Below, piece after piece: positions 1 through 10,389 of a stretch of 10,389 bases of DNA (the first letter of the stretch is position 1; each line of letters opens with the position of its first letter). The position numbers and the translations under genes are program-made. The DNA comes from Candidatus Woesearchaeota archaeon (GTDB lineage Archaea > Nanobdellota > Nanobdellia > Woesearchaeales > ARS49), in contig JAHFPE010000012.1 in NCBI GenBank assembly GCA_023261345.1, forward strand, positions 1-10,389. Reading direction: 5' to 3'. The notes under the pieces were generated by a model that worked only from the letters and a program-made list of their open reading frames with translations, was not told where the DNA came from and made no database searches.

Positions 1-87
1 AAAACGCTTCCAACCAAGCTTTTTGGCAAGGAGTTTAGCAACTGTGGACTTTCCACTTCCGGGCTTACCTCTTATCGTGATGATCAT
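1..87 (-). CDS. cmk: Cytidylate (CMP) kinase, N-terminal 29 residues only
   Basis: The reading frame starts with ATG at 87 and runs off the left edge of the window. It encodes MIITIRGKPGSGKSTVAKLL followed by AKKLGWKRF. The P-loop GKPGSGKST at residues 7-15 binds the phosphates of ATP. A protein that begins directly with the strand MI-I-T-I and a GxPGSGKST loop, followed by an AKLLAKKLG helix, matches archaeal cytidylate kinases, which phosphorylate CMP and dCMP in the cytoplasm. A TATA-like box at 111-117 lies about 27 bases upstream, so the mRNA is probably leaderless. It is divergent from the next gene. Other small P-loop nucleotide kinases such as adenylate kinase-like proteins cannot be fully excluded from 29 residues. 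Confidence 0.75.
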   Translation of the reverse strand, partial: MIITIRGKPGSGKSTVAKLLAKKLGWKRF

Positions 88-110
88 TTGTCACGTAATC
101 AGTTGTAAGT

Positions 111-117
111 ATAAAAT
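111..117 (-). promoter_or_regulatory. TATA box of the CMP kinase gene
   Basis: On the minus strand the sequence reads GATTTTATACTT. The box centre is about 27 bases before the ATG at 87, which predicts transcription starting at or next to the start codon. Confidence 0.5.
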
Positions 118-161
118 CTTTTGTGTAAAAAATCAACAGTTAATCGAAAATTCCAACCATC

Positions 162-169
162 TTTTTAAG
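162..169 (+). promoter_or_regulatory. TATA-like box for the 331-residue gene
   Basis: TTTTTAAG is centred about 28 bases before the GTG at 194. This would make the GTG a leaderless start. The match to an archaeal TATA box is moderate. Confidence 0.35.
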
Positions 170-193
170 CAACAGTATTTTCTAATAAGTTGA

Positions 194-1189
194 GTGAAGA
201 ATATGCTTGAAACAACTATAGAATTACTTTTCAGTACAAAAGGACTTGCGAGTTACACAAGCGAACAAGATAAAGTTGCGGTTCAAAAAATTTTAGACTC
301 ATTACCTTTAATGGATACTGAATTTCTTGATACATTGAAAAACATACAGCGAGCTGATCAGAAATTTCACGTGACTCATGTTTTTGCAAAAGTAGGAGAA
401 GAATTGAGAGAACGACTTCATCTTGATCAATATATTCCTGGCAAAGATCATAAAAAGGACGAAATTGCACTTGCGTATGCTGTTACTTCAGTGTATGCTG
501 CGATCTTTATGGAGTCTTGTTTCACTGAAATACTTCCCTTCTTTAAACATCGAGAAACTAGAGTACCAAGTCCTGCAAGAGCATATCTGAAAAGAAAAGA
601 CAAACATGACTTTGCCTCTCACGCATGCGCTCTAGTTGCAGATGCACGAAAAAGCCCTGCAGAAAGAACTTTTTTCCTAGAATGTTCACGGTTTCATGCG
701 AACAAAAGCATTCTTCTTCATCAATATCATCTCGGAAAAGGGAGCGCGTTCACGCAATTGTATTTACGCAGAGCACAAGCAAACTATGGTCTTGCATTAA
801 TGAACAATCCTGCAGAGTGGAAGTTTCAAGCAGTTGCAGCAGATATTCTACTTGCTCTTGAGAAAGATGCTCAAGTTGGCGAAGCAAGATGGAGAACCTC
901 CACATTTCTCTCAAAAGGCGCGTGCTTTCTTGCCAATGTCGCACTGTGCTTTGATCAAAAATCTCACATAAAATACAGTACAGCACAAGGAATGCGAGTT
1001 TCTTATTCTGCAAAAGAAATTTTTTATCAGGACGCACTAGACTATTTAGCACAAGCCAAAATTGCATTGACGAAAGAACGAACAGCACTCACTGGAGAAA
1101 GTGTTCAAAACTCAAGCAAATTATTCGACTATCAAATTCCAGATTTTAATTCTTGCCCAAACATTGGTAAGTTACCCGTAATATTTTAA
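194..1189 (+). CDS. Unknown helical protein, 331 residues
   Basis: I do not recognise this protein. It is soluble, with no signal peptide or membrane segment, and appears almost entirely helical. Two stretches (about residues 185-225 and 270-295) have the alternating small and large hydrophobic pattern of TPR-like helix pairs, for example LYLRRAQANYGLAL, so a scaffold role is possible but unproven. Cysteines occur singly and do not form a zinc motif. The start is either GTG at 194, supported by a TATA-like box about 28 bases upstream, or ATG at 203, which has a weak GAGTGA sequence before it. The gene is divergent from the CMP kinase and convergent with the 108-residue gene, so it is probably transcribed alone. 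It ends with TAA just before a T-rich hairpin region. Confidence 0.75.
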   Translation: MKNMLETTIELLFSTKGLASYTSEQDKVAVQKILDSLPLMDTEFLDTLKNIQRADQKFHVTHVFAKVGEELRERLHLDQYIPGKDHKKDEIALAYAVTSVYAAIFMESCFTEILPFFKHRETRVPSPARAYLKRKDKHDFASHACALVADARKSPAERTFFLECSRFHANKSILLHQYHLGKGSAFTQLYLRRAQANYGLALMNNPAEWKFQAVAADILLALEKDAQVGEARWRTSTFLSKGACFLANVALCFDQKSHIKYSTAQGMRVSYSAKEIFYQDALDYLAQAKIALTKERTALTGESVQNSSKLFDYQIPDFNSCPNIGKLPVIF

Positions 1190-1211
1190 TGATTGTACAA
1201 GTGCTATTTTC

Positions 1212-1237
1212 TTGAGAATTTTTAAGAATTTATTCTT
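1212..1237 (+). terminator. T-rich hairpin between convergent genes
   Basis: A run of five T (1219-1223) is followed by a perfect 6-base inverted repeat, AAGAAT (1224-1229) and ATTCTT (1232-1237), with a 2-base loop. It lies 22 bases past the stop of the plus-strand gene and overlaps the stop codon of the convergent gene. Archaeal termination depends mainly on T tracts, so this is a plausible terminator for the plus-strand transcript. Confidence 0.4.
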
Positions 1238-1556
1238 CACTGCGTGCAGAAAGCCCAATAGTTTTGCCACGATATGTGTGCACACAAATCAGTTTACCCT
1301 TGAGAGAATCGACATCACTTGCATTTGTATCATTCATCAATCCGCGAATATCAGGCATACGTGTATACAACGCAACTCCTTTTTTTGTTCCATCATATGC
1401 CACGTGCAATTCCAGACCAAAATTCTTCCAGCCATCTTGGTCCCCAAATGACGCTTCAAAAATGCATCCTTTTCTTAGTTTCGATTCTTCAACAATTTCT
1501 GATAATGGTTTGTTGCGTTTAATCGAAAGAGAACGCGCATACTTGCTTACATACAA
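1230..1556 (-). CDS. Unknown small protein, about 108 residues
   Basis: I do not recognise this protein. It has a basic, probably helical N-terminus (KYARSLSIKRNKPLSEIVEE) followed by a mostly beta region with many Gly, Val and aromatic residues (IFEASFGDQDGWKNFGLELH and onward), ending in HTYRGKTIGLSARSEE. There is no signal peptide, membrane segment or zinc motif. The start is uncertain. The first conventional start in frame is TTG at 1556, but the frame stays open upstream, and the TATA box at 1611-1620 predicts transcription from near 1588, where only a non-standard ATA lies in frame. It is convergent with the 331-residue gene and probably monocistronic. Confidence 0.6.
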   Translation of the reverse strand: MYVSKYARSLSIKRNKPLSEIVEESKLRKGCIFEASFGDQDGWKNFGLELHVAYDGTKKGVALYTRMPDIRGLMNDTNASDVDSLKGKLICVHTYRGKTIGLSARSEE

Positions 1557-1610
1557 ACGCGCAGGTTGATCACGTGGCGGTGTAGATATTCTCTTTAAAA
1601 TTAAAAAGAG

Positions 1611-1620
1611 ATTTATAAAT
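1611..1620 (-). promoter_or_regulatory. TATA box of the 108-residue gene
   Basis: On the minus strand, ATTTATAAAT is preceded by a purine-rich BRE-like GAAAG. It is a strong match to the archaeal TATA box and predicts a start of transcription near 1588. The box is palindromic, but no plus-strand gene follows within range. Confidence 0.5.
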
Positions 1621-1639
1621 CTTTCAGATTAAAAGAAGA

Positions 1640-1780
1640 CTAAACATTACCCTTCAACTCTTTCAATCGCTCAATAAATACATTGACTACTGCTCGAAAT
1701 TTTTGGGCAAACTCATACGGATTTTATTGTATCATTTCTAGAATTTCTTCTACCTGAAACGACTTTAATTCTTCCTCACA
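1640..1780 (-). pseudogene. Possible broken short ORF after aIF2 alpha
   Basis: In a frame different from aIF2 alpha, the minus strand reads ELKSFQVEEILEMIQ, then an in-frame TAA at 1724-1726, then NPYEFAQKFRAVVNVFIERL followed by KELKGNV and TAG at 1640. The two halves look like one amphipathic helical protein interrupted by a single stop codon, where a T in place of C would turn CAA into TAA. No usable start codon lies at the head. It may be a decayed small gene, or chance. It does not resemble Nop10. Confidence 0.25.
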
Positions 1781-2553
1781 AAATCAACAGAACCATGATC
1801 TTTAAATGCAGACGTGACGCGTTCAGTCACAGATTTTAGCACGCGCTCAGCTTCCTTAAACTCTTTTGCAGTAATCGTCACATGATAATTTCCAGCTCCA
1901 GCATACGCAATTTTCACAGCGCTCTTTGGAGGTAGTTTTGTGGATAAACCCTCAGATAATGCCTGCTTAATTAATAGAACTCCATCTGGCAAATATGTTG
2001 CAAGCTTCATATCACCAGTAATTGCAACTTCAGGAGGCTTAATACGCTCCTTCACCGCATCAGTTACTTGCTTTGCAAGAACTTTATCAACACCAAGAGC
2101 TTCCAAAGAAATACCATCGAGAGCAACAGCAGTTAAGCACGGAAACACGCCTGCATATTTTTTTAACACTAACGGCGCAATCTTATCATAAAACTTCTCA
2201 GGATCATCTCCTCGTTGTTTTGCAACTTGCTCAAGAATACGCTCAGCTAGTTGCTCTTCTTTGACTTGATTTAATTTCTCGCGCTGCTGCGTCTCAGTCA
2301 CTCGACGAATGCTGAGGTCAATATGCCCTTTCTCCAGATCGGTGCGAAGAACTTTACAAACAATCTTTTTTCCTTCTTTCACAAAATCACGAATGTTACG
2401 AATACGCCCCGGCGCAACCTCAGAAATATGAACAAGCCCAGTGCGTTTGCCATACTCATCAAGAACAGCAAAAACAGAATGTGGAGTTATGCCTGTGACT
2501 GTACACAACACTAACTCTTCTTCGCTTGGAAGCCCTTGCCGTTTTAGTAGCAT
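1765..2553 (-). CDS. eif2a: Translation initiation factor 2 subunit alpha (aIF2 alpha)
   Basis: This is the alpha subunit of the heterotrimeric factor that brings initiator Met-tRNA to the small ribosomal subunit. At 262 residues it has the usual archaeal length. Residues about 12-84 form an S1-type OB fold, with the family stretch GLVHISEVAPGRIRNIRDFV followed by KGHIDLSIRRV. A helical middle domain follows (about 90-170), then a C-terminal alpha-beta domain (about 175-255) that in this family contacts the gamma subunit. The phosphorylatable Ser51 region of eukaryotes is replaced by the archaeal form. The ATG at 2553 has a TATA-like box about 27 bases upstream and no Shine-Dalgarno sequence, so it is probably leaderless and able to be transcribed apart from the upstream gene. 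In many archaea the order is L44e, S27e, aIF2 alpha, Nop10. Here Nop10 is not seen and an unknown gene intervenes. Confidence 0.95.
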   Translation of the reverse strand: MLLKRQGLPSEEELVLCTVTGITPHSVFAVLDEYGKRTGLVHISEVAPGRIRNIRDFVKEGKKIVCKVLRTDLEKGHIDLSIRRVTETQQREKLNQVKEEQLAERILEQVAKQRGDDPEKFYDKIAPLVLKKYAGVFPCLTAVALDGISLEALGVDKVLAKQVTDAVKERIKPPEVAITGDMKLATYLPDGVLLIKQALSEGLSTKLPPKSAVKIAYAGAGNYHVTITAKEFKEAERVLKSVTERVTSAFKDHGSVDFVRKN

Positions 2554-2576
2554 GAACCAAAAGAACTGAAGACGAG

Positions 2577-2584
2577 TTAATAAA
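2577..2584 (-). promoter_or_regulatory. TATA box of aIF2 alpha
   Basis: TTTATTAA on the minus strand is centred about 27 bases before the ATG at 2553. This supports an independent leaderless promoter for the factor. Confidence 0.45.
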
Positions 2585-2640
2585 GATAGCTCTTTGATGA
2601 GTTGTACGTATTGCTAAACATCCGTAAGAACAAAAAAGTA

Positions 2641-3714
2641 TCAGCACGCCTTTCCCAGATGCGTAACTTCTTTTGCTTCCGCCACACAAAATCTATGAAT
2701 TGCGTATGTTCCAAGAAAATGCAGCCACGTGTTTGAATAACTTCTTAACCCGCTCCCTTCATGCAGAAAATTCAAACGATTAGGTGGAGCTCGTTCATTC
2801 ATACCAAAATGAGATTTATCATTTTTCTCCCACATACCTCTTGCGTATCCAGAAGCAATTGCTCCCCAATACATATCGGAATGGTATCTTGCTTGTTCTT
2901 CACTTGACCAAAACGACCCTTCTTCAATTGAATTTTGTTCTGGCTTTCCGATTCTATCTTTGTTTTCTTTTTTCAAAAAATTATGAGCCTGCACTTTGAC
3001 ACCACCCAGTATGTATTGAACACGTTGTACTGCCTCACACGCAATTCCTTTTGAATCAAGTATCCACAGTGGAGAGCAACCTTGCGCCATTTCCTCAAGT
3101 TTAACACTCAGATACTGCAACAACGGACGAACTCTCAAATAACCACTCTCAGATAATTCTTTTTCTGTGATGCCCGCACCAAACATGCCCAAGGTTTTCG
3201 GTTCTTCTTTGACGTTTCCTTGATACATTTCTGCGAGTCCAGCAACCATACGTTCCATCAAACCAAATATGTTGTAAACTGATCTACCATATTCCTCTTG
3301 TTCGGTTCCTAGACGAGAAGTTGAAATTCGCGGAATCTTAATCGCCCCGCATTTTTCTTCGAGACGACTACGACCTTCTCCAAGATTTTTCTTCAATTGA
3401 TCAAGAAAACCTTTGCATTTCTGCCAGTCTTCAGCTTCAAGTTGAAGCTCATGAAAAAAAGAGTATTGATCGTTATCCACAAGCCCGAAATAGCAGAAAT
3501 CTTCTTCAAACGCATGAGGAAAAGCAATGCTAGTTTTCGCATATGCGCCAGGAGCGGTTCTTGCGAGAAAAGGGCTATTAGAATCCTGCCAAGTTCCAGT
3601 GTCCAAATGAATTGCGAACATATCATGACGTTCAAGACAACCAGAGGCTGAAACACGCCTTATTTGAGCGAGTGCTTCAGCGACTTTTCCTGGCAACTCA
3701 AGTTGTGAAGGCAT
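2641..3714 (-). CDS. Unknown protein inside the translation cluster, 357 residues
   Basis: I do not recognise this protein. From ATG at 3714 it has 357 residues (MPSQLELPGKVAEAL at the start). The frame extends upstream to a TTG at 3846, but the ATG is preferred: a TATA-like TTAATAAG is centred about 28 bases before it, and the extra segment overlaps a structured RNA region. It appears to be a soluble mixed alpha-beta protein rich in aromatic residues, with single scattered cysteines and no signal peptide. Recognisable patches include HDMFAIHLDTGTW near the N-terminus, PLWILDSKG in the middle and SNTWLHFLGTYAIHRFC near the end. It sits between S27e and aIF2 alpha, which are often adjacent in archaea, so a link to translation is possible from context only. 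Confidence 0.7.
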   Translation of the reverse strand: MPSQLELPGKVAEALAQIRRVSASGCLERHDMFAIHLDTGTWQDSNSPFLARTAPGAYAKTSIAFPHAFEEDFCYFGLVDNDQYSFFHELQLEAEDWQKCKGFLDQLKKNLGEGRSRLEEKCGAIKIPRISTSRLGTEQEEYGRSVYNIFGLMERMVAGLAEMYQGNVKEEPKTLGMFGAGITEKELSESGYLRVRPLLQYLSVKLEEMAQGCSPLWILDSKGIACEAVQRVQYILGGVKVQAHNFLKKENKDRIGKPEQNSIEEGSFWSSEEQARYHSDMYWGAIASGYARGMWEKNDKSHFGMNERAPPNRLNFLHEGSGLRSYSNTWLHFLGTYAIHRFCVAEAKEVTHLGKAC

Positions 3715-3738
3715 TTGTGTAGAGAATAACTGAAGCTG

Positions 3739-3746
3739 CTTATTAA
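3739..3746 (-). promoter_or_regulatory. TATA-like box for the 357-residue gene
   Basis: TTAATAAG on the minus strand is centred about 28 bases before ATG 3714. The match is weaker than for its neighbours, but the spacing fits the leaderless pattern of this window and decides the start. Confidence 0.35.
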
Positions 3747-3834
3747 CATTTGTACAGTGAGCAGTGGCGAACTCGCAAATTTCTGCGAACAGCAGAATCT
3801 TATTGAGGAGTTTAAAAAACTTATCAAAAATAGT

Positions 3835-3891
3835 CAAACTCCTCAAAGAAGAGGTTTGAATCCAACGTAAAACAGGTTTTATTCAAACCTC
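3835..3891 (-). promoter_or_regulatory. Three-arm hairpin region after S27e
   Basis: In the transcript, GAGGTTTGAAT (3891-3881) pairs perfectly over 11 bases with ATTCAAACCTC (3861-3851), leaving a 19-base loop. The second arm can instead pair with GAGGAGTTTG (3844-3835) across a 6-base loop with a two-base bulge. The first arm begins 1 base after the S27e stop codon. The two pairings exclude each other, so the region could be a terminator, an attenuator or an mRNA processing site. Confidence 0.5.
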
Positions 3892-3892
3892 T

Positions 3893-4078
3893 CTACTCTA
3901 GAACTTCAAGCACTCGCGCCTTAACTCGTGCCTTGCCACCAGTTGGTTCTGCAAGAAGTTTACTGCACACAAGACAGTGCACAAGCGAACTTGCCTTTCC
4001 AAACATGATCTGCTCGTTCTTACATTTTGAGCAACGAATTTTAATGTACTTACCTTGCGGTTCTTGTAATGGTTTCAT
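3893..4078 (-). CDS. rps27e: Ribosomal protein eS27 (S27e)
   Basis: This is a small zinc-binding protein of the 30S subunit, 61 residues, the typical archaeal size. Four cysteines in the pattern C-x2-C-x15-C-x2-C (residues 16, 19, 35, 38; CSKC and CLVC) form the zinc ribbon. FGKASSLVHC, the adjoining EPTGGKA and the basic tail are typical of the family. The ATG at 4078 overlaps the TGA of L44e as ATGA, which implies translational coupling and one transcript. The frame is open further upstream to 4147, but that part is the antiparallel-frame shadow of L44e and is not used. The perfect inverted repeat at 3851-3891 starts directly behind its stop codon. Confidence 0.95.
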   Translation of the reverse strand: MKPLQEPQGKYIKIRCSKCKNEQIMFGKASSLVHCLVCSKLLAEPTGGKARVKARVLEVLE

Positions 4079-4383
4079 GTGAACTCTACCTTTCGCAAGC
4101 GAATTCCTCCACTTGAAGAACTCCACGTTTTCTTGCACTGCGAACATGTATATCTGAAATCAGTCTTTTTGGTTTGCTTTTTCCCATACATCTTTCCACC
4201 GCCAGGAGGACGTGAGTATCTGCCTGCATTACCCATCCCCGCAAGATGACGCCACTTACGACGAGTACCCGCACTCATTGTGTGCACACTACCCATTGTC
4301 CTCTTTTTTGCCAATTCATTATTATGAAGGGTATGCTTTTTGCACTTCTTACAAAACCGCATTCGCTGCTTTGGAACTTTCAT
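4075..4383 (-). CDS. rpl44e: Ribosomal protein eL42 (L44e)
   Basis: This is a large-subunit ribosomal protein at the tRNA exit (E) site, 102 residues. Two Cys pairs, CKKC at 11-14 and CSQC at 80-83, make the zinc site. MKVPKQRMRFCKKCKKHTLH and SAGTRRKWRH followed by a glycine-rich basic stretch (GNAGRYSRPPGGGKMYGKKQ) and a TKKTDFRYTC segment are family hallmarks. ATG at 4383 is chosen over in-frame ATGs at 4395 and 4422 because it gives the family N-terminus, and because the TATA-like box at 4406-4413 would place the transcript start at or next to it. It is followed by S27e with an ATGA overlap. Upstream, the unknown 319-residue gene ends 57 bases before, so the L44e promoter lies in that gap. 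Confidence 0.95.
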   Translation of the reverse strand: MKVPKQRMRFCKKCKKHTLHNNELAKKRTMGSVHTMSAGTRRKWRHLAGMGNAGRYSRPPGGGKMYGKKQTKKTDFRYTCSQCKKTWSSSSGGIRLRKVEFT

Positions 4384-4405
4384 AACAGCAACCATCAGGG
4401 AGTGG

Positions 4406-4413
4406 TTTTTAAA
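4406..4413 (-). promoter_or_regulatory. TATA box of the L44e-S27e unit
   Basis: TTTAAAAA on the minus strand is centred about 27 bases before the L44e ATG at 4383, in the short gap after the upstream gene. It indicates a promoter separate from the diguanylate cyclase unit. Confidence 0.5.
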
Positions 4414-4440
4414 GGTTTGCACAAAACATTTACAAATTTT

Positions 4441-5400
4441 TCATGCAACTGCATTATATCCGAATTCAGCTGGAACATACCTACGTTCTGAAACAAGCCC
4501 ACAAATACCAAGCTTTTTTAGTTTAGGATTTAGAACTATTTCTTCTTCCATTCCCCTGCTTACTTGTGATGCCAAATCCAAAGAAGGACAAATAAGTGCG
4601 CAGATCAATTCTTCTTTAGACCACTCGCAGAAAGACTCTTCTTTCTGATACAAAAAATTCTCTCCTCGGGGATTCGCTTTTTGAATAACCAGTTCTTGCT
4701 TTCTTGGCTTAAAGGAGTCATACGCTTCCCAGAGATAATCACCGCAAATCCCTTGAATTGTATTTCGAACAAACGCACCTTCTTGTGCGGAGTAGCTTAA
4801 AGGCCAATTTGTGTCCCGAAATTTTACACGCACTTCATAAACATTTCCAGTTAAGATTTGAAGAAGCGGAAATAAAACTTGCTCCACATAATTGTGCGAC
4901 TTAATTTCTCGTTCACTAGCAAGCACATATTCCGGAACTGATTCCTGCTTTCGAATTGCGTTAATTGCAGAAAGCACACAACGTTTTGTTTGAAACGGGA
5001 GTTCAGCAGCAGTGGTTTCTCCCACCACACAATTTAATTGAGGGACTTTGGTTGAGAGCAATAATTCAAGCGCAGAACTAATTGATGCTACCTTTTTTCT
5101 TTTCAGATATATTTCTTCAAGAACAAGCTGCTTCACAGAAATCATACATTCAGAAGGACTCAGACAACACGCGTCGATCCCATTAATAGAACCGCCAATT
5201 CCCGGAAAACCACCCCCTGCTCCCGGAAATGGGGCCTCCTCTGAATGAGTATAATCGCGCGGAATAATCCGCCGCGCGACGGCGTCAGGCAGGCACGCGT
5301 ATTTCGCGTTTCCTAATTTCTTCTCCACTCCCCACATAAAAATTCCACCCGCGCCACTTCCTTGCGACGCGGGGGCACCTCTTAATCCCACATTGATCAT
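4441..5400 (-). CDS. Unknown partner of the diguanylate cyclase, 319 residues
   Basis: I do not recognise this protein. Its ATG at 5400 overlaps the TGA of the GGDEF gene as ATGA, so the two are almost certainly translated in a coupled manner from one mRNA. The N-terminal 80 residues are unusual: low in secondary structure, glycine-rich (PFPGAGGGFPGIGG at 58-71) and with cysteines at 36, 78, 79 and 85. The remainder looks like an ordinary alpha-beta or helical soluble domain (VKQLVLEEIYLKRKKVASIS, later KPRKQELVIQKANPRGENFL). I see no PilZ, EAL or HD-GYP motif, so it is not a known c-di-GMP receptor or phosphodiesterase by inspection. The DNA for residues about 40-60 is locally very GC-rich with an 8-base hairpin at 5255-5279. 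The pairing suggests it acts with the cyclase as effector, sensor or target, which is inference from context. Confidence 0.75.
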   Translation of the reverse strand: MINVGLRGAPASQGSGAGGIFMWGVEKKLGNAKYACLPDAVARRIIPRDYTHSEEAPFPGAGGGFPGIGGSINGIDACCLSPSECMISVKQLVLEEIYLKRKKVASISSALELLLSTKVPQLNCVVGETTAAELPFQTKRCVLSAINAIRKQESVPEYVLASEREIKSHNYVEQVLFPLLQILTGNVYEVRVKFRDTNWPLSYSAQEGAFVRNTIQGICGDYLWEAYDSFKPRKQELVIQKANPRGENFLYQKEESFCEWSKEELICALICPSLDLASQVSRGMEEEIVLNPKLKKLGICGLVSERRYVPAEFGYNAVA

Positions 5401-6680
5401 TTGTTGTACTCTACTAATCTAGGAGTTACTACCTGTGCTACAACACGAGACGCGACAGGGCCAAGGAAATTGTACGGACAGATGGAAGATCCCACTTGCT
5501 CAAGAGAAAATTTTTCTGCTTGAGGAACGACAACGTATGCAGTTCCATTTTTTCCATTGCCCTTAACTGCATATAATGCGTTGTCCGCAACTTTACCAAG
5601 TGCGCCCGAGGGGATCTGAGATAGATTATCTCTATTTATTGGGACTGAATCGGGGCGAACATATCCTGCTACTCCTGCACTAATCCCAATATGGTATATT
5701 TCACAGTCTCCGTTTTTTCCAACAAGTGGAATGAATCCCTCAGTAATAGCCTTCCTTGCACGCTCCACTTTTATTGCGCCTGATGAAATATCTTTTACAT
5801 CAGATAATATGGCCGCGAACTCGTCACCTCCAATACGATACAGAGCATCTCCTCTTCTTTTGAATTCTAATCGAAGAGAACTCGCTACGTAGCGAAGGAC
5901 ATTATCTCCTGCATGATGACCTAATTTGTCATTGATTTCTTTGAAGCCATCAAGATCCATATACACTACAAGGAGTGACCCCCCTGTGCGAGATGAAACA
6001 GTTCTTGTAAGATCTTGATCGAATGCGCGCCTATTCAACAGTCCAGTAAGTGCATCAGTTGTGGAGTTTTTTTCTAGTTCACTAAAAGCACTCACGATCG
6101 CAGAATAGACTTCGCGAACCGCTTGCATGGCATTCGGAGTGTATCTTCCACTAAGTTGTTTTTTAGCAGTTTGCAAGCGCTCTTTTTCCTCCGGGGAAAG
6201 ATGTCTTTCGATGGTTTCTCCAGTGATCGCTAGAAGAGATGCTGCTTGCATCACAAGACCAGAATATTCTTCGCCAACCCTCTCAGGAGTAAGACCTGTT
6301 AAACCCTGAATTGAATGAAGACGCAGCGAAAGATCCTCAAGAAGTTCTCCTGAACGACCGGTACGCTCTTGAGCAATTTTAAGTGATCGCTCGGCAACAG
6401 CTAAGCGGTGTTCGAGTACTCCTCGACCAAGGCCTTCATATTCTTGTAGCGGTTCATAGACTGCAATTCCCTGATTATCTCCTGATTCTGATACTAATTT
6501 CGCACTGGGAGTCGATCGAATTGGCGGACTTCTTGAACCACTACCGCTTAGTCCATGATACAGTTCACGCTGCGCATCTTGCGCTTCACGAACAACTTTA
6601 TCCGATAACTCCTCACCAATTCTTTCCTGTTGGCCTGGCTCTGGAGCACCTTTCGCTGTCAGTATTGGTATTGAACTCAT
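5397..6680 (-). CDS. GGDEF-domain diguanylate cyclase, 427 residues
   Basis: This predicted enzyme would condense two GTP into cyclic di-GMP. The C-terminal half is a complete GGDEF domain: TTDALTGLLNRRAF (about 207-220), the metal-binding MDLDGFKEIND (241-251; Asp242 first), LGHHAGDNVL, the signature RIGGDEF with GGDEF at 284-288, ISAGVA, and the closing ADNALYAVKGNGKN (about 365-378). RRGD at 275-278 fits the inhibitory I-site in RxxDxxxRxGGDEF, so product inhibition is expected. The N-terminal 200 residues are cytosolic and mostly helical, without a membrane segment or a sensor domain I recognise; the stretch before the GGDEF domain could be a dimerising coiled coil. A 40-residue tail follows the domain. 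ATG at 6680 is chosen because AAAGGAGGTGA ends 5 bases before it; an upstream in-frame start at 6719 lacks such a site. It overlaps the next gene by ATGA. GGDEF proteins are common in bacteria and rare in archaea, so bacterial acquisition is plausible. Confidence 0.93.
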   Translation of the reverse strand: MSSIPILTAKGAPEPGQQERIGEELSDKVVREAQDAQRELYHGLSGSGSRSPPIRSTPSAKLVSESGDNQGIAVYEPLQEYEGLGRGVLEHRLAVAERSLKIAQERTGRSGELLEDLSLRLHSIQGLTGLTPERVGEEYSGLVMQAASLLAITGETIERHLSPEEKERLQTAKKQLSGRYTPNAMQAVREVYSAIVSAFSELEKNSTTDALTGLLNRRAFDQDLTRTVSSRTGGSLLVVYMDLDGFKEINDKLGHHAGDNVLRYVASSLRLEFKRRGDALYRIGGDEFAAILSDVKDISSGAIKVERARKAITEGFIPLVGKNGDCEIYHIGISAGVAGYVRPDSVPINRDNLSQIPSGALGKVADNALYAVKGNGKNGTAYVVVPQAEKFSLEQVGSSICPYNFLGPVASRVVAQVVTPRLVEYNK

Positions 6681-6685
6681 AATCT

Positions 6686-6696
6686 TCACCTCCTTT
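6686..6696 (-). promoter_or_regulatory. Strong Shine-Dalgarno site of the GGDEF gene
   Basis: AAAGGAGGTGA on the minus strand is followed by 5 bases and the ATG at 6680. It is the best ribosome binding site in the window and fixes the start of the cyclase. Most other genes here seem leaderless. The TGA within it also ends an upstream short ORF. Confidence 0.85.
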
Positions 6697-6757
6697 GTTC
6701 TTGTAATCGCAGTCTGCAAACGCAGACGCTTGCGTTATGTTCGTTTGTTTTCATCAT
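6686..6757 (-). CDS. Possible 23-residue leader peptide ahead of the GGDEF gene
   Basis: ATG at 6757 opens a 23-codon frame, MMKTNEHNASVCVCRLRLQE followed by QRR, whose TGA stop lies inside the Shine-Dalgarno sequence of the cyclase. The TATA-like box at 6782-6794 predicts transcription starting at about 6760-6763, so this ATG would be the first codon of the transcript, read as a nearly leaderless message. Ribosomes ending there would sit over the downstream binding site, which suggests translational coupling or attenuation. The peptide has two cysteines (VCVC) and a basic end. It could equally be chance, since a 23-codon open frame is short. No homology is recognised. Confidence 0.35.
   Translation of the reverse strand: MMKTNEHNASVCVCRLRLQEQRR
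6712..6736 (-). promoter_or_regulatory. Two overlapping alternative hairpins in the GGDEF leader
   Basis: GTCTGC (6712-6717) pairs with GCAGAC (6722-6727) around a 4-base loop. AACGCA (6719-6724) pairs with TGCGTT (6731-6736) around a 6-base loop. The stems share bases 6722-6724, so only one can form at a time. They lie in the predicted 5' leader, upstream of the Shine-Dalgarno sequence. Confidence 0.35.
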
Positions 6758-6760
6758 AGA

Positions 6761-6880
6761 AGTACGTACTGATTTAAGTTCAATATATATTTAACGTACT
6801 TATTGTACTAAAAACAGTATTGTACTTACTGTGGAGAAAAGTACGTATTTGAAGATGTTCGCGAAATTAACATCGTACGC
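6761..6880. promoter_or_regulatory. GTAC-rich operator cluster in the GGDEF promoter
   Basis: GTAC occurs seven times in about 117 bases (6762, 6766, 6796, 6805, 6822, 6841, 6875). Read on the minus strand, four copies fit a common box: TAAGTACAATA, TTAGTACAATA, TAAGTACGTTA and TCAGTACGTAC. One is the perfect 10-base palindrome AGTACGTACT at 6761-6770, covering the predicted transcription start. Others lie just upstream of the TATA box, where an archaeal regulator would act. One copy is also framed by the inverted repeat CAGTA (6815-6819) and TACTG (6827-6831). Confidence 0.5.
6782..6794 (-). promoter_or_regulatory. TATA box of the GGDEF operon
   Basis: TTAAATATATATT on the minus strand is a strong TATA box that predicts a transcription start near 6760-6763. 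It is flanked on both sides by GTAC-containing sites. Confidence 0.55.
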
Positions 6881-6958
6881 ATGGCAAACATCAAAACTAC
6901 ACTAAATCCAACTCGCAATTTAAGACTTCACACTGGACGCACCTCGAATTGAGAAATA

Positions 6959-7795
6959 TTACGCAAGTGCATCAAAAAATGAAAACAACAACGATTCTTT
7001 GTTCGGACATTTTCCTGCACAATCAACAATCGCATTCCACGACGAAGAAAGCTGCGTTTGATTCGACTGCGAAACAGACCGATCAACAGATGTTACTGCC
7101 TCAGAAAACCGAACAGTGTTATCGGTTTGCCAATACTGATTAACCGCAAGAAGATTCAAAATGAGGCTGCCAGAAGCACTGCCTAGACGATCCGCTTCAG
7201 TTGCAACGGCAGTGACGAAACGCAAGAATTCTGCGTTAGCACATTCTCTAGCAAGACATAACGCAACTGCATCCCAACGTTCACCAAGCACACTACTTTT
7301 TTGCGCGGCCACTAAATCTTGAATTTTCGTGACGAGTAATGAAGTTTTCACGGTATCATTTTTTGCTGCTGCAATACGCAAATCAAGAACCTGCCGTAGC
7401 AATATTGGAATTAACGCTGCCTGCGCAGAAGATGGAGAAAAAACAGAAGAACCTGACGAAACAGAAGCAGAACCGATCTGCGAAGACAACCCCGCACTTG
7501 AACCAGTTGAAGAAGCGCTCGATGAATTGACCACACTCGCTCCAAGTAACGATGACCCACTCACAGTTGCGCCTCCTTCTCTTGCAATAATTCCAGAAGA
7601 TGGCTCAAGCTGTTGCACTGAATTTCCAGTTGTACTAAGTGACCTTCCGCCCATCCAGTAACCGCTCAAGAATAGAACAACAGCCAATGCAGCAAGACCG
7701 ATAAACAATCCAGAACGACTCCGCGACTCATTCATATTCGAACGAAGCCCAGTTGAGGTATTTAAATATTGCCCATTGGATAAATCCTTACTCAT
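6959..7795 (-). CDS. Single-pass membrane protein with duplicated Trp/Cys-Cys repeat, 278 residues
   Basis: From ATG at 7795 the protein has a short cytoplasmic N-terminus with several basic residues (RSRSR), one membrane segment at about 30-47 (LFIGLAALAVVLFLSGYW), a Ser/Gly/Ala-rich stalk (about 50-125), and a C-terminal domain made of two similar repeats at about 129-193 and 210-273. Each repeat reads TV[KR]xSxxVT, then about 19-20 residues later W[DN]A[VI]xxC, then a second Cys 4 or 5 positions on, then NxExLxF. By the positive-inside rule the stalk and repeats lie outside the cell, and the paired cysteines could form a disulfide. GAGGTG just before the ATG serves as ribosome binding site. 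The gene overlaps the end of Gins51 by 8 bases, so the two are co-translated. The domain is not one I can name. Confidence 0.8.
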   Translation of the reverse strand: MSKDLSNGQYLNTSTGLRSNMNESRSRSGLFIGLAALAVVLFLSGYWMGGRSLSTTGNSVQQLEPSSGIIAREGGATVSGSSLLGASVVNSSSASSTGSSAGLSSQIGSASVSSGSSVFSPSSAQAALIPILLRQVLDLRIAAAKNDTVKTSLLVTKIQDLVAAQKSSVLGERWDAVALCLARECANAEFLRFVTAVATEADRLGSASGSLILNLLAVNQYWQTDNTVRFSEAVTSVDRSVSQSNQTQLSSSWNAIVDCAGKCPNKESLLFSFFDALA

Positions 7796-8450
7796 CACCC
7801 ACCTCAACTGCTTTACCACTACTTATTAAAATGTCAGCGAGGTTAGGAGGAATTGCTGCAAGATCCCTAGGGTGAAAAGGGCCGTACTGCTCAAGTTCCT
7901 CGCCCACAAACTGCTGTACTTCTTCAAGAAACCGAACGCGTTTTGAAGACTTTTGTTCAGTCGTATTTAAAGAACGTTGCGGTACAGCTTGCTGAGAGAA
8001 TGTGTGTGAATTATTCACTGCTGAGTGTTGCACCTCTCCTTGTAATGCAAGCACACGAACAAGCACACGATCACGTGCTTCATTAAGTACTGTAGTAAAA
8101 CGATCATAAAGCGCAATTTCTTCAGCAAGCAATTGCGCAGTATTAATCAAACCACTATTTGTTCTACTTTTGTTAAGCGCAAGATCAATTATTTTTTTTT
8201 CACGACGCTCATAGAGCTCCCTTAACAATCTTTTTGCATTCTGAATCTGCTGCAATGTTTTCTCACGTTCACTCACGCTAAATAAATCACTCTTCGCCAA
8301 GCACGCATCAAGATACTGCTGTTTTTCGCGCAAATACAAAAGAACATCATCATAAAACGAAGGATCTAACTGCTGAATCTCCTCACGATTTTTTTCCTGA
8401 CGCATCAACTCATAAAGCGTCTCATACGTGACCTTAATACGATCACCCAT
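7788..8450 (-). CDS. gins51: Archaeal GINS subunit, Gins51 type
   Basis: This is a subunit of the GINS complex, which joins MCM and the Cdc45/RecJ-like protein in the replicative helicase. The 220 residues are arranged as a helical A domain first (about 5-130), a variable linker (140-170) and a small beta B domain at the C-terminus (about 171-217). That order is the Gins51 (Sld5/Psf1-like) type; Gins23 has it reversed. Family signatures are ITYETLYELMR-like residues 6-17, EKNREEIQQLDPSFYDDVLL, NAKRLLRELYERREKKIIDL, and in the B domain VRFLEEVQQFVG and YGPFHPRDLAAIPPNLADIL. ATG at 8450 is preceded by GGTGGT as ribosome binding site and by TTTAAATA about 40 bases upstream. The stop overlaps the start of the membrane protein. 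An array of repeats lies just upstream of the TATA box. Confidence 0.88.
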   Translation of the reverse strand: MGDRIKVTYETLYELMRQEKNREEIQQLDPSFYDDVLLYLREKQQYLDACLAKSDLFSVSEREKTLQQIQNAKRLLRELYERREKKIIDLALNKSRTNSGLINTAQLLAEEIALYDRFTTVLNEARDRVLVRVLALQGEVQHSAVNNSHTFSQQAVPQRSLNTTEQKSSKRVRFLEEVQQFVGEELEQYGPFHPRDLAAIPPNLADILISSGKAVEVGDE

Positions 8451-8485
8451 ACATTACCACCACAAAACAAAACCAGCGAAAGGCG

Positions 8486-8493
8486 TATTTAAA
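8486..8493 (-). promoter_or_regulatory. TATA box of the Gins51 unit
   Basis: TTTAAATA on the minus strand predicts a transcript start near 8462, leaving a short leader of about 12 bases that carries the GGTGGT ribosome binding site ahead of ATG 8450. Confidence 0.55.
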
Positions 8494-8496
8494 GCT

Positions 8497-8558
8497 AACG
8501 TTCATGAGTTCGCAAACGTTCTGCAGTTCGCTCTACGCCCACAGCAGAACGTTGAACT
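8497..8558. repeat. Operator-like 18-bp tandem repeat with inverted copy upstream of Gins51
   Basis: AACGTTC-3 bases-AGTTCGC-1 base occurs twice in tandem (8497-8514 and 8515-8532; 14 of 18 positions identical). An inverted copy, GCAGAACGTT plus GAACT, lies at 8544-8558. The second and inverted copies form a 10-base perfect stem (8515-8524 with 8544-8553), extended by 5 more pairs (8507-8511 with 8554-8558) after a 3-base bulge. A further inverted TGCGAACTC is at 8608-8616. The array abuts the upstream side of the Gins51 TATA box. It could be a regulator-binding site or a structured RNA. The rest of 8559-8690 shows nothing I can assign. Confidence 0.5.
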
Positions 8559-8693
8559 GATGCTCGAGGAGGTGTAGTCGTATATCAAGAATCTCTGAAT
8601 GAGTATGTGCGAACTCGAGAATCTTTGCTCACACAACGAACTTTTCTCCAAACTACGACAATTCTGCACGCCAACAAGCGCTAACGTGAAAAA

Positions 8694-8703
8694 TTTATAA
8701 ATA
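8694..8703 (+). promoter_or_regulatory. TATA box of the 92-residue gene
   Basis: TTTATAAATA preceded by an A-rich BRE-like GTGAAAAA is centred about 27 bases before ATG 8725. This is a strong leaderless promoter. Confidence 0.6.
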
Positions 8704-8724
8704 CAGAAGAAAGATAATTAGTAC

Positions 8725-9003
8725 ATGATTACACTACAAATATGTCACAATCCTACAACACACGAACACACAATTTATCGAAGGACACAATACCGCAGAG
8801 GAAGTATTACCACAACTTATCCAACATATTTAGCGATGATAACTGGTTTAGTTAGAGAGTTCAAAGATACAGAACACGAGTTAAAAATTGAAGGTGCAAT
8901 TCCAAACAAAACAGACTGGGGAAATTTTGATACTCGCAGGGTTCAACCCTTGCCAGACATCCAAGTAAGAGTTTTGTGCACATTTTTGGAAAGCATGCTG
9001 TAA
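8725..9003 (+). CDS. Unknown small protein, 92 residues
   Basis: I do not recognise this protein. It starts MITLQICHNPTTHEHTIYRR and is polar and basic in its first third, followed by a probable helix (YLAMITGLVREFKDTEHEL) and a C-terminal strand-helix segment (IQVRVLCTFLESML). There is no membrane segment or metal motif. A well-formed TATA box with the right leaderless spacing supports that it is a real gene. It is divergent from Gins51, and the sequence behind its stop is the decayed tail of another gene on the opposite strand. A regulator, antitoxin-like protein or other small accessory protein are all possible; nothing in the sequence decides. Confidence 0.6.
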   Translation: MITLQICHNPTTHEHTIYRRTQYRRGSITTTYPTYLAMITGLVREFKDTEHELKIEGAIPNKTDWGNFDTRRVQPLPDIQVRVLCTFLESML

Positions 9004-9007
9004 ATCT

Positions 9008-9172
9008 ACTTTTTGAAATCTTCCAAAGATCCAAAAAGAACTCGCGCAATTGATTTGCAAATACTTCACTTTCAATTTTAATTGCTATGGGAGTGTTAAG
9101 CCAAGAAAGAATAATTACATAATTTCCATACATGGCTATTCCCTGCGGAAGATTCCAGAAGATGAAAAACTG
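9008..9172 (-). pseudogene. C-terminal remnant resembling a TrmB-type regulator
   Basis: The minus strand encodes about 55 residues without a proper start: QFFIFWNLPQGIAMYGNYVI, ILSWLNTPIAIKIESEVFAN, QLREFFLDLWKISKS. An in-frame TAA at 9173-9175 cuts it off upstream. The pattern LPxGIAxYG, then VxIxSW, then PxAIxIxSxxxAxxxRxFFxxLW resembles the very C-terminus of TrmB-like and related archaeal helix-turn-helix regulators, which end at such an FFxxLW. After KISKS the frame reads on, but a TAG lies in the +1 frame at 9006-9008 directly after a run of A, as if one A had been lost. I infer a 3' gene fragment in decay. Family assignment is from memory of the motif only. Confidence 0.45.
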
Positions 9173-9177
9173 TTAGA

Positions 9178-9190
9178 ATTGTACTACAAT
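9178..9190. promoter_or_regulatory. Palindrome ATTGTA-C-TACAAT upstream of the ParA gene
   Basis: This is a perfect 6-base dyad around one base, 24 bases before the TATA box of the ParA gene. It contains ATTGTACT, also found twice in the GGDEF promoter (6802-6809 and 6819-6826). Confidence 0.35.
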
Positions 9191-9214
9191 AAAATTCACT
9201 CTTTCACTTCAATC

Positions 9215-9221
9215 TTATAAA
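9215..9221 (+). promoter_or_regulatory. TATA box of the ParA-family gene
   Basis: TTATAAA is centred about 30 bases before the ATG at 9248 and predicts a leaderless or nearly leaderless message. Confidence 0.5.
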
Positions 9222-9247
9222 CGCCATCTCAATTCATTAAAGAACGA

Positions 9248-10389
9248 ATGACAACAACAATTATTCTTCCAGTAAATAACAAAGGCGGAGTTGGTAAGAC
9301 TTCAGTTCTCGCTGATTTAATTTCAATGCTCTCAAGGAGTTATACCACAGCAGTTATAGATTTTGATCGTCAAGGAAGTCTAGCAGGAACATTCCTTCAT
9401 GACCATGCCATTGGAAGTAAACCCTTGCCATGGTATGATGAATTTCAACCAAGAAAAGTTACACTTCAAGAACGTACCAGTTTCTCGTTTGCTGATGCAA
9501 TACGAACACTAACGATTAGCCTAGAACCTGCTGAAACTAAAGTCGCAATATTTCCAGTTGGTATACTCTACCACAATCCGCAACAACGAAAAAAATTAGA
9601 ACAGATTATTACTAAAGATTTTGAAGGAGTTGACATTATTGGTGTTGACTTACCTCCTGTTCCAGACGCAGCACTCATACTTGACCATTCTCTTCGACCA
9701 CTACTGGAAATTTTGAAGGATGTGCGGTTAGTACCAATCATTGTTACTACACCCGAAAAAAACACAATCGAAATTGGACTAGAACAATACCCTGAAATTC
9801 ACAATTACCTTCAAACACTTGGAGTTGAAAAACAACGCATTAATCCAATACTTTTGGTAAATAAATTACGAATAGAAACTGCAAATACGCAATATCCACG
9901 AGGGTTTAATGATCAAGACCTTGATAAATTACTAAAAAGCAGGTTAGTAAAGGGGGCCTGGATTAAGCGACAAGAGGATTTGCACCGCAGTTCTTTGGGT
10001 GGAACTCCTGACGGGATAGCAGGAATAATAGTGGGCGGTCTCGAAAGAGACGGAATTTCGTATGACGTACGCTGGCTGCCGATATTCACTCATCTTTCAG
10101 AAGGGAGACGCGAAACATCTACAGATAAAAACTTTTCATTCTACTTTGGAACAACACCTGAATTATTCCATTACCCACAACTTCTGGAGCTTGTGAATAA
10201 ACAAGGATACCATGGATTTCGAGATGGACCGACAGAACATCGCGTCTTTACAGAACAAATGAGCAAATTCCTCGAATATATATCCTCTCGAATCTGCAGG
10301 GAAGGACGAGAATTTTATGTGGCTAGCACCGTGCGAAAATCAACCATAGAAGTTCAAGCAAGACTCATCGAAAGTCTCAATGAAGGAAT
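9248..10389 (+). CDS. ParA-family ATPase, partial (C-terminus missing)
   Basis: The frame opens at ATG 9248 and stays open for 380 codons to the right edge. It begins MTTTIILPVNNKGGVGKTSV. KGGVGKTS (12-19) is the deviant Walker A motif, with signature Lys12 and catalytic Lys17. VIDFDRQGSL (about 37-45) is the A' motif, and VDIIGVDLPP (about 128-137) is the Walker B region. These mark the ParA/MinD/Soj superfamily, dimerising ATPases that position DNA or protein cargo. At over 380 residues it is longer than a minimal ParA (about 250-270), with extra sequence after about residue 210 (LLKSRLVKGAWIKRQEDLHR and onward) that I do not recognise. No ParB-like partner or centromere repeats are visible in the window. 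It may serve chromosome or plasmid partition, or another positioning task. Confidence 0.88.
   Translation, partial: MTTTIILPVNNKGGVGKTSVLADLISMLSRSYTTAVIDFDRQGSLAGTFLHDHAIGSKPLPWYDEFQPRKVTLQERTSFSFADAIRTLTISLEPAETKVAIFPVGILYHNPQQRKKLEQIITKDFEGVDIIGVDLPPVPDAALILDHSLRPLLEILKDVRLVPIIVTTPEKNTIEIGLEQYPEIHNYLQTLGVEKQRINPILLVNKLRIETANTQYPRGFNDQDLDKLLKSRLVKGAWIKRQEDLHRSSLGGTPDGIAGIIVGGLERDGISYDVRWLPIFTHLSEGRRETSTDKNFSFYFGTTPELFHYPQLLELVNKQGYHGFRDGPTEHRVFTEQMSKFLEYISSRICREGREFYVASTVRKSTIEVQARLIESLNEG

Follow-up and report, generated by a model that had tools for sequence, protein, structure and literature searches.

We analyzed a 10,389-nucleotide stretch of DNA, hereafter the window, from Candidatus Woesearchaeota archaeon (GTDB lineage Archaea; Nanobdellota; Nanobdellia; Woesearchaeales; ARS49; GenBank assembly GCA_023261345.1, contig JAHFPE010000012.1, positions 1 to 10,389 of the forward strand). 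In this window, a gene for a GGDEF-domain protein, a predicted diguanylate cyclase that would produce cyclic di-GMP (c-di-GMP), directly precedes a gene for a 319-residue orphan protein, hereafter the partner. The window is contig C162 of genome G000, which comprises 0.93 Mb in 166 contigs and is 76.55% complete and 0.23% contaminated. On the minus strand, the genes follow one another in the order Gins51, a 286-codon orphan, the GGDEF gene, the partner, L44e, S27e, a 401-codon orphan, and aIF2 alpha (Table 1). A first-pass annotation, made by a model from the letters of the window, had named L44e, S27e, aIF2 alpha, and GINS as archaeal neighbors, and Pfam confirmed each of the four.

Table 1. 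Features of the window, numbered from its first letter
Feature	Position	Strand	Basis or remark
GGDEF-domain protein, predicted cytosolic diguanylate cyclase, 427 amino acids	5397..6680	minus	Pfam, NCBIfam, and PDB matches; hydrophobicity
GGAGGTG, Shine-Dalgarno-like	6687..6693	minus	6 nt before ATG 6680; from sequence
MDLD with metal-binding Asp D242	5949..5960	minus	translation and 50-protein alignment
RRGD, the RxxD I-site, five residues ahead of GGDEF	5847..5858	minus	translation
GGDEF signature, active half-site (residues 284-288)	5817..5831	minus	translation
Orphan partner, 319 amino acids	4441..5400 (ATG 5400, TGA 4443-4441)	minus	frame and homologue P0002
ATGA overlap, GGDEF stop and partner start	5397..5400	minus	sequence
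Seven GTAC tetramers in 120 bp around TATA-like TTAAATATATATTG (6794-6781, minus)	6762..6878		possible promoter and operator repeats
286-codon orphan with one N-terminal hydrophobic stretch (maximum KD19 2.16), in the same insertion	6959..7819	minus	87% homologue P0124
Gins51 (archaeal GINS), upstream border of the insertion	7788..8450	minus	Pfam PF22090, 5.5e-13
Ribosomal protein L44e, downstream border of the insertion	4075..4422	minus	Pfam PF00935, 3e-10
Ribosomal protein S27e	3893..4147	minus	Pfam PF01667, 3.2e-21
401-amino-acid orphan between S27e and aIF2 alpha	2641..3846	minus	without family match (Pfam, NCBIfam, PHROGs, PADLOC) or match in 21 related loci
aIF2 alpha	1765..2553	minus	Pfam PF07541, 1.7e-16

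The GGDEF frame can be opened at the ATG at 6680 or, in a longer form, at a TTG at 6719, and both forms end at 5397. The ATG was taken as the better start because the GGAGGTG run precedes it. The protein matched the Pfam GGDEF family (PF00990) at E 3.5e-29 with 102.1 bits against a cut-off of 23.8, and NCBIfam TIGR00254 with 106.7 bits against a cut-off of 37.4. A search of PDB sequences matched 48 distinct sequences, including WspR and PleD entries. We then aligned 50 of the 56 GGDEF proteins found in the order; six were excluded as short, cut-off, or degenerate frames, including one GGDEF-EAL protein set aside with them. In this alignment, D242, F246, G285, and E287 were invariant, and N250, D259, and K373 were kept in at least 90% of the proteins. 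The roles of these residues (guanine-binding Asn and Asp, phosphate-side Lys, and metal Asp) were transferred from PleD and are presumed to hold here. As shown, the domain lies above the curated cut-offs, and the A-site, the metal Asp, the Asn/Asp/Lys set, and RxxD are all present. Thus, the signature, the MDLD Asp, the substrate-side residues, and the RxxD site claimed by the first-pass annotation were all found in place.

An RxxD I-site mediates product inhibition in many GGDEF cyclases, although not in all of them, and some GGDEF proteins make cyclic GMP-AMP (cGAMP) or are regulatory. We take replacement of D259 to mark the cGAMP-making enzymes; because the window protein keeps D259, this rule would point to c-di-GMP rather than cGAMP as the product. 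The highest 19-residue hydrophobicity of the protein was 1.14, and no membrane-like stretch was found. Its N-terminal ~200 residues matched no Pfam domain up to E 1, and the first 198 residues had no match at E 0.1 in the other 56 of the 57 genomes of the order. Compared with the WspR/PleD-type cyclases in PDB, the window protein has the same domain, A-site, metal Asp, guanine-side residues, and I-site; in contrast, it is archaeal, its N-terminal 200 residues hold no Pfam domain, and its cyclase activity is a prediction. Taken together, these features suggest a genuine archaeal gene for a soluble, catalytically intact-looking diguanylate cyclase with a product-inhibition site. The enzyme is probably active, in agreement with the earlier view that it looks fully active, and it probably adds a member to the known diguanylate cyclase family.

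The partner, in turn, matched only two entries up to E 1 among ~5.8 billion proteins, namely the window's own protein and P0002. These protein searches scored candidates sharing words with the query, which numbered 1836 for the partner, the best 8000 for the GGDEF protein, and 7999 for the upstream orphan. No Pfam family matched the partner up to E 1, and so no PilZ, MshEN, EAL, or HD-GYP profile did, which bears out the earlier remark that PilZ, EAL, and HD-GYP motifs are lacking. No NCBIfam match was obtained up to E 0.1, nor any match among PDB sequences up to E 1. Membership of another known family was rejected, as PHROGs gave a single match at chance level (E 0.15) and PADLOC gave nothing convincing. 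Plasmids and phages searched by tblastn yielded nothing convincing, and the same was true of GTDB contigs and viral contigs, two sets that may omit the nearest kin of the window. The partner was likewise rejected as a paralogue of other window genes, the best match being no better than E 0.15. The first-pass annotation had put this protein forward as a direct candidate for a c-di-GMP-linked role; profile searches for c-di-GMP-binding folds in Pfam and NCBIfam, however, returned no family match. Judged from its sequence, the partner is an orphan without a recognizable c-di-GMP domain, and a c-di-GMP role for it appears possible but is not favored.

P0002 and the partner are identical at 266 of 298 residues (89%) without a gap, and the partner is therefore very likely a protein-coding gene. 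Its start is less clear. The two genes had been described as translationally coupled through the ATGA overlap; the overlap is present in the window, but P0002 begins at the partner's codon 22, that is, 21 codons past the overlapping start, which is therefore a putative one. Codon 22 of the partner is itself an alternative start (ATG, 5337-5335) with a GGTGG run just upstream. Moreover, the G+C content at third codon positions (GC3) was 0.45-0.57, by segment, over the first ~80 codons (5160-5400), compared with 0.23-0.45 downstream.

The closest homologues pointed to a second assembly that holds the cassette. P0124 (87% identity to the upstream orphan), P0002 (89% to the partner), and P0004 (39% to the GGDEF protein) each came from one 19611-base contig of the same source. 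They probably lie on the same contig, as judged from the identical size and not from the contig sequence; if so, the cassette would be older than these two genomes. P0004 was the best protein-search match to the window GGDEF protein (39% over 89%), and identity by segment ran 63, 45, 29, 37, 47, 34, and 22%, with 63% over residues 1-60, 47% over residues 206-300, and 22-37% over four other segments. The two proteins share the N-terminus, GGDEF, and RxxD; in P0004 the first Asp of MDLD is kept, but the second is Asn. Its core is 34-47% identical to the window protein, while the neighboring genes are at 87-89%. The closest row to P0004 in our tree was the window protein, with a join support of 77 only. 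A clean swap of the GGDEF domain between the two assemblies was considered and rejected: since the segment identities showed no sharp border and P0004 was nearest to the window protein, fast divergence or exchange of a paralogue is indicated instead. Either of these, or differential loss from a tandem pair, would do to explain a cyclase that diverges between near-constant neighbors. The GGDEF gene and the partner may therefore stay together even as the enzyme changes at a much higher rate.

The locus was further compared with 21 related loci. In fifteen of them, GINS and L44e occur together, accompanied by S27e and aIF2 alpha, and the gap between the GINS and L44e matches, border to border, is ~8 to 1750 bases, compared with 3365 in the window. 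In G001, a genome of the same genus rated 100% complete, these matches are ~56 bases apart, and neither a GGDEF gene nor an orphan lies between them. The other six loci gave no GINS match, some of them being short contigs or contig ends. In none of the 21 loci did the GGDEF protein, the partner, the upstream orphan, or the 401-residue orphan find a tblastn match at E 1e-3. Because the pair is absent from the 15 loci with GINS and L44e, that of the same genus included, it represents a lineage-specific insertion. The GGDEF gene, the partner, and the upstream membrane-anchored orphan are thus most likely a lineage-specific cassette in an otherwise conserved archaeal block. Co-occurrence of the two genes in relatives, on which the earlier idea of a c-di-GMP module depends, was largely lacking: the partner was present in 1 of the 57 genomes of the order, the window's own, against 40 for the GGDEF domain, and it was not found in G001, despite six GGDEF matches there; on the other side, the one further assembly seems to hold both genes, with the GGDEF protein at 39%. 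Elsewhere in the window, a ParA/MinD-like ATPase (9248-10387) runs off the contig end (Pfam CbiA, 4.5e-08; PHROG ParA-like, 1.8e-14), and the three Rfam matches obtained on the window were all under their gathering scores.

A stretch of 278 bases separates the upstream orphan from the ATG of the GGDEF gene. None of 2000 first-order Markov simulations reached seven GTAC tetramers in 120 bp, a test that is generous because the motif was picked after the sequence was seen. The GTAC region also includes two AGTACAATA direct repeats on the minus strand and looks like a set of operator sites. Downstream, L44e likely starts at ATG 4383, with a TTTAAA ~28 nt upstream (by eye). We infer by eye that the GGDEF gene and the partner may be transcribed together, as a unit of two genes, from a promoter of their own, apart from GINS upstream and L44e downstream.

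Next, we considered how GGDEF proteins are distributed in this archaeal group, as the first-pass annotation had called them rare in archaea. That statement did not hold: the domain was detected in 40 of the 57 genomes of the order, among which the same table gives 23 of the 26 genomes for the window's family; at the level of the phylum, 125 of 279 genomes had it (124 above the cut-off). Previous accounts differ. A passage of PMC5847659 (2018) mentions one archaeal GGDEF protein, in Methanocella, and leaves undecided whether others are contamination; a passage of PMC10086821 (2022) describes GGDEF as almost absent from archaea. In a passage of PMC8646023 (2021), >300 archaeal BLAST matches are counted, many in Asgard and DPANN, and according to PMC9938205 (2023), cyclase genes are 1.7-fold more numerous in sediment-enriched ultra-small prokaryotes, with bacteria and archaea pooled. 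Among the literature titles searched, a scope that leaves most subscription journals outside, none concerned conserved GGDEF proteins in this group or the partner.

A tree of 97 GGDEF domains was built from 48 of 118 database rows and 49 of 56 archaeal rows, those passing a length filter. The 56 archaeal proteins are only those matches in the order whose DNA was read, and the database rows lean towards the window protein, since the profile was built from 46 of its matches. In this tree, 22 archaeal proteins formed one clade (Shimodaira-Hasegawa-like approximate likelihood ratio test, SH-aLRT, 91, not starred); 21 of these came each from a different genome of the window's family (21/26). A YGR210-like GTPase cluster occurred in 19 of 21 clade neighborhoods, on the strand opposite to GGDEF in 18 (L091-L110, L059). 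A DHH-DHHA1 protein occurred in 10 of 21, on the same strand in nine, seven of which lay at most 50 bases away or overlapped. One member of each of these two neighbor groups was checked for identity, the GTPase by Pfam. As a candidate pair for c-di-GMP turnover in archaea, the clade GGDEF protein and the DHH-DHHA1 phosphoesterase would be preferable to the pair in the window. Of the 50 GGDEF proteins scanned, eight carried PocR, six GAF, and six GAF_2.

The clade proteins (GGEEF, some with PocR or GAF) share the domain and the lineage with the window protein and keep the catalytic residues. They differ in that 20 of the 22 have no RxxD before GGEEF, whereas the window protein has one, and the window protein also sits in another genomic place and has its own N-terminus. 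The quick tree placed it outside the clade. However, trees holding it with the clade beat the free tree by 8.76 (with P0004) and 14.22 (without P0004) log units, and the approximately unbiased (AU) test did not reject them (p-AU 0.598 and 0.654). This result counts against any firm claim that the window GGDEF protein is not of that lineage; it may lie inside the clade, as the AU test allows, or outside it, as in the quick tree. The window genome holds one more GGDEF match, a degenerate one (FGSEF) cut off at the end of contig C117 (L058:2-394), which adjoins orphans with N-termini that look pilin-like by eye.

The rest of the c-di-GMP pathway was then searched for in the same 57 genomes. PilZ and MshEN each matched in none, compared with 5 of 14 control genomes each, and EAL matched in one, compared with 6 of 14 controls. 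The c-di-GMP-I riboswitch was found in none of the 57, and likewise in none of the 14 controls. HD_5 was found in 17 of 57 genomes, and a model built from four proteins of the window's family in 18. An HD-type hydrolase was rejected as the matching phosphodiesterase, since neither profile co-occurred with GGDEF: the family model matched 13 of 40 genomes with GGDEF and 5 of 17 without (Fisher p 1.0), and HD_5 matched 13 of 40 and 4 of 17 (Fisher p 0.75). Nine HD_5 matches were read. Four from other archaea of the order (L066-L069), one fused to a region that looks PAS-like by eye, have canonical or near-canonical HD-GYP motifs, whereas the other five (L131-L135) do not. The HD_5 protein of the window genome (L131:128-814, contig C24) is an HD-GYP variant with HDVGK and HHWFQEQGYP, the latter without part of what we take to be the usual HHExxDGxGYP; three relatives in the family carry HHExKKxxYPR in place of HHWFQEQGYP.

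We consider it somewhat probable that the window encodes a soluble, product-inhibited cyclase within a lineage-specific cassette, in which the partner is co-expressed from a two-gene unit and the product goes to a general c-di-GMP pool. The GGDEF protein would most likely act as a dimer whose GGDEF site joins two GTP to give c-di-GMP; binding of c-di-GMP at RxxD would shut the enzyme off. Its activity would probably be set by its own N-terminal 200 residues. The partner would probably be co-expressed from the shared unit, which does not imply a part in c-di-GMP signaling. The enzyme most likely would feed a general pool, in a group rich in cyclases in which the receptors known from bacteria went undetected. 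Several points weigh against this interpretation. The counts of PilZ, MshEN, and EAL leave the c-di-GMP target without a candidate receptor, and the HD-type hydrolases do not track GGDEF. The TATA-like and TTTAAA promoters were read by eye. P0004 is so diverged that its function could differ. Persistence of GGDEF beside the partner in the second assembly somewhat favors a link between the two, although the placement of the three homologues on one contig comes from their identical contig size.

Such a link would be expected if the pair were a minimal c-di-GMP module, in which the partner served the cyclase next to it specifically, as its receptor, effector, or regulator. The four-base overlap, the apparent retention of GGDEF beside the only other known partner, which is itself conserved at 89% without a gap, and the failure to find PilZ and MshEN in the 57 genomes would agree with it. 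However, the partner occurs in one genome against 40 for GGDEF, has no domain, PDB, or family match beyond the chance-level PHROG, and starts in P0002 21 codons beyond the overlap. Furthermore, GGDEF falls to 39% while the orphan is constant, which argues against tight pairing of the two proteins, even though c-di-GMP itself would be unchanged. We therefore regard the module as rather doubtful. It is a possible alternative, and a less doubtful one, that the two genes are neighbors by coincidence. The partner would then be an independent orphan of rapid origin that actually begins at codon 22, and the overlap would be an artefact of picking the longest frame. The start of P0002, the GGTGG run upstream of that ATG, and the presence of other orphans (286 and 401 residues) in the same block are consistent with this, as is the deviating GC3 of the first ~80 codons, although codons 22-80 are clearly coding. 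Against coincidence, the genes are directly adjacent on the same strand, and GGDEF seems to stay alongside in the second assembly.

That the GGDEF protein makes something other than c-di-GMP in vivo, or serves as a regulatory domain binding GTP or c-di-GMP, would suit its fast divergence, and the support for a cyclase is at the sequence level. This appears unlikely, given that the catalytic residues, D259 included, are kept and that both homologues have RxxD and GGDEF and retain the first Asp of the metal motif; in P0004, Asn replaces the second. Bacterial contamination or misassembly was also weighed, because among the GGDEF database matches listed, those with an organism name, a minority, were bacterial, and P0010 was the most similar sequence in the tree set (45% identity). 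Nevertheless, the gene is flanked by archaeal genes on both sides, its flanking orphans and a GGDEF protein whose N-terminus is related (63% over residues 1-60) recur in another assembly, the contamination of the bin is low, and members of one GGDEF clade are present in 21 of 26 family genomes, in similar neighborhoods; contamination is therefore very improbable for this locus. It is also unlikely as a general cause, because GGDEF occurs in so many genomes of the order and the phylum and the clade neighborhoods are fixed within the family.

A more far-reaching explanation would be that the order runs a c-di-GMP network of many catalytically intact GGDEF enzymes, in which receptors of as yet unrecognized kinds stand in for the undetected PilZ and MshEN. 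The 319-residue orphan would then be one such receptor, kept nearly constant with the membrane gene (87-89%) while the cyclase was diversified or replaced (39%); we consider this improbable. With the soluble, product-inhibited cyclase in its lineage-specific cassette as the preferred interpretation, the window pair is a less typical example of minor weight, and the wider distribution of GGDEF proteins is the more interesting result. In this group, where cyclases are common and receptors are missing, archaeal c-di-GMP becomes a testable matter.

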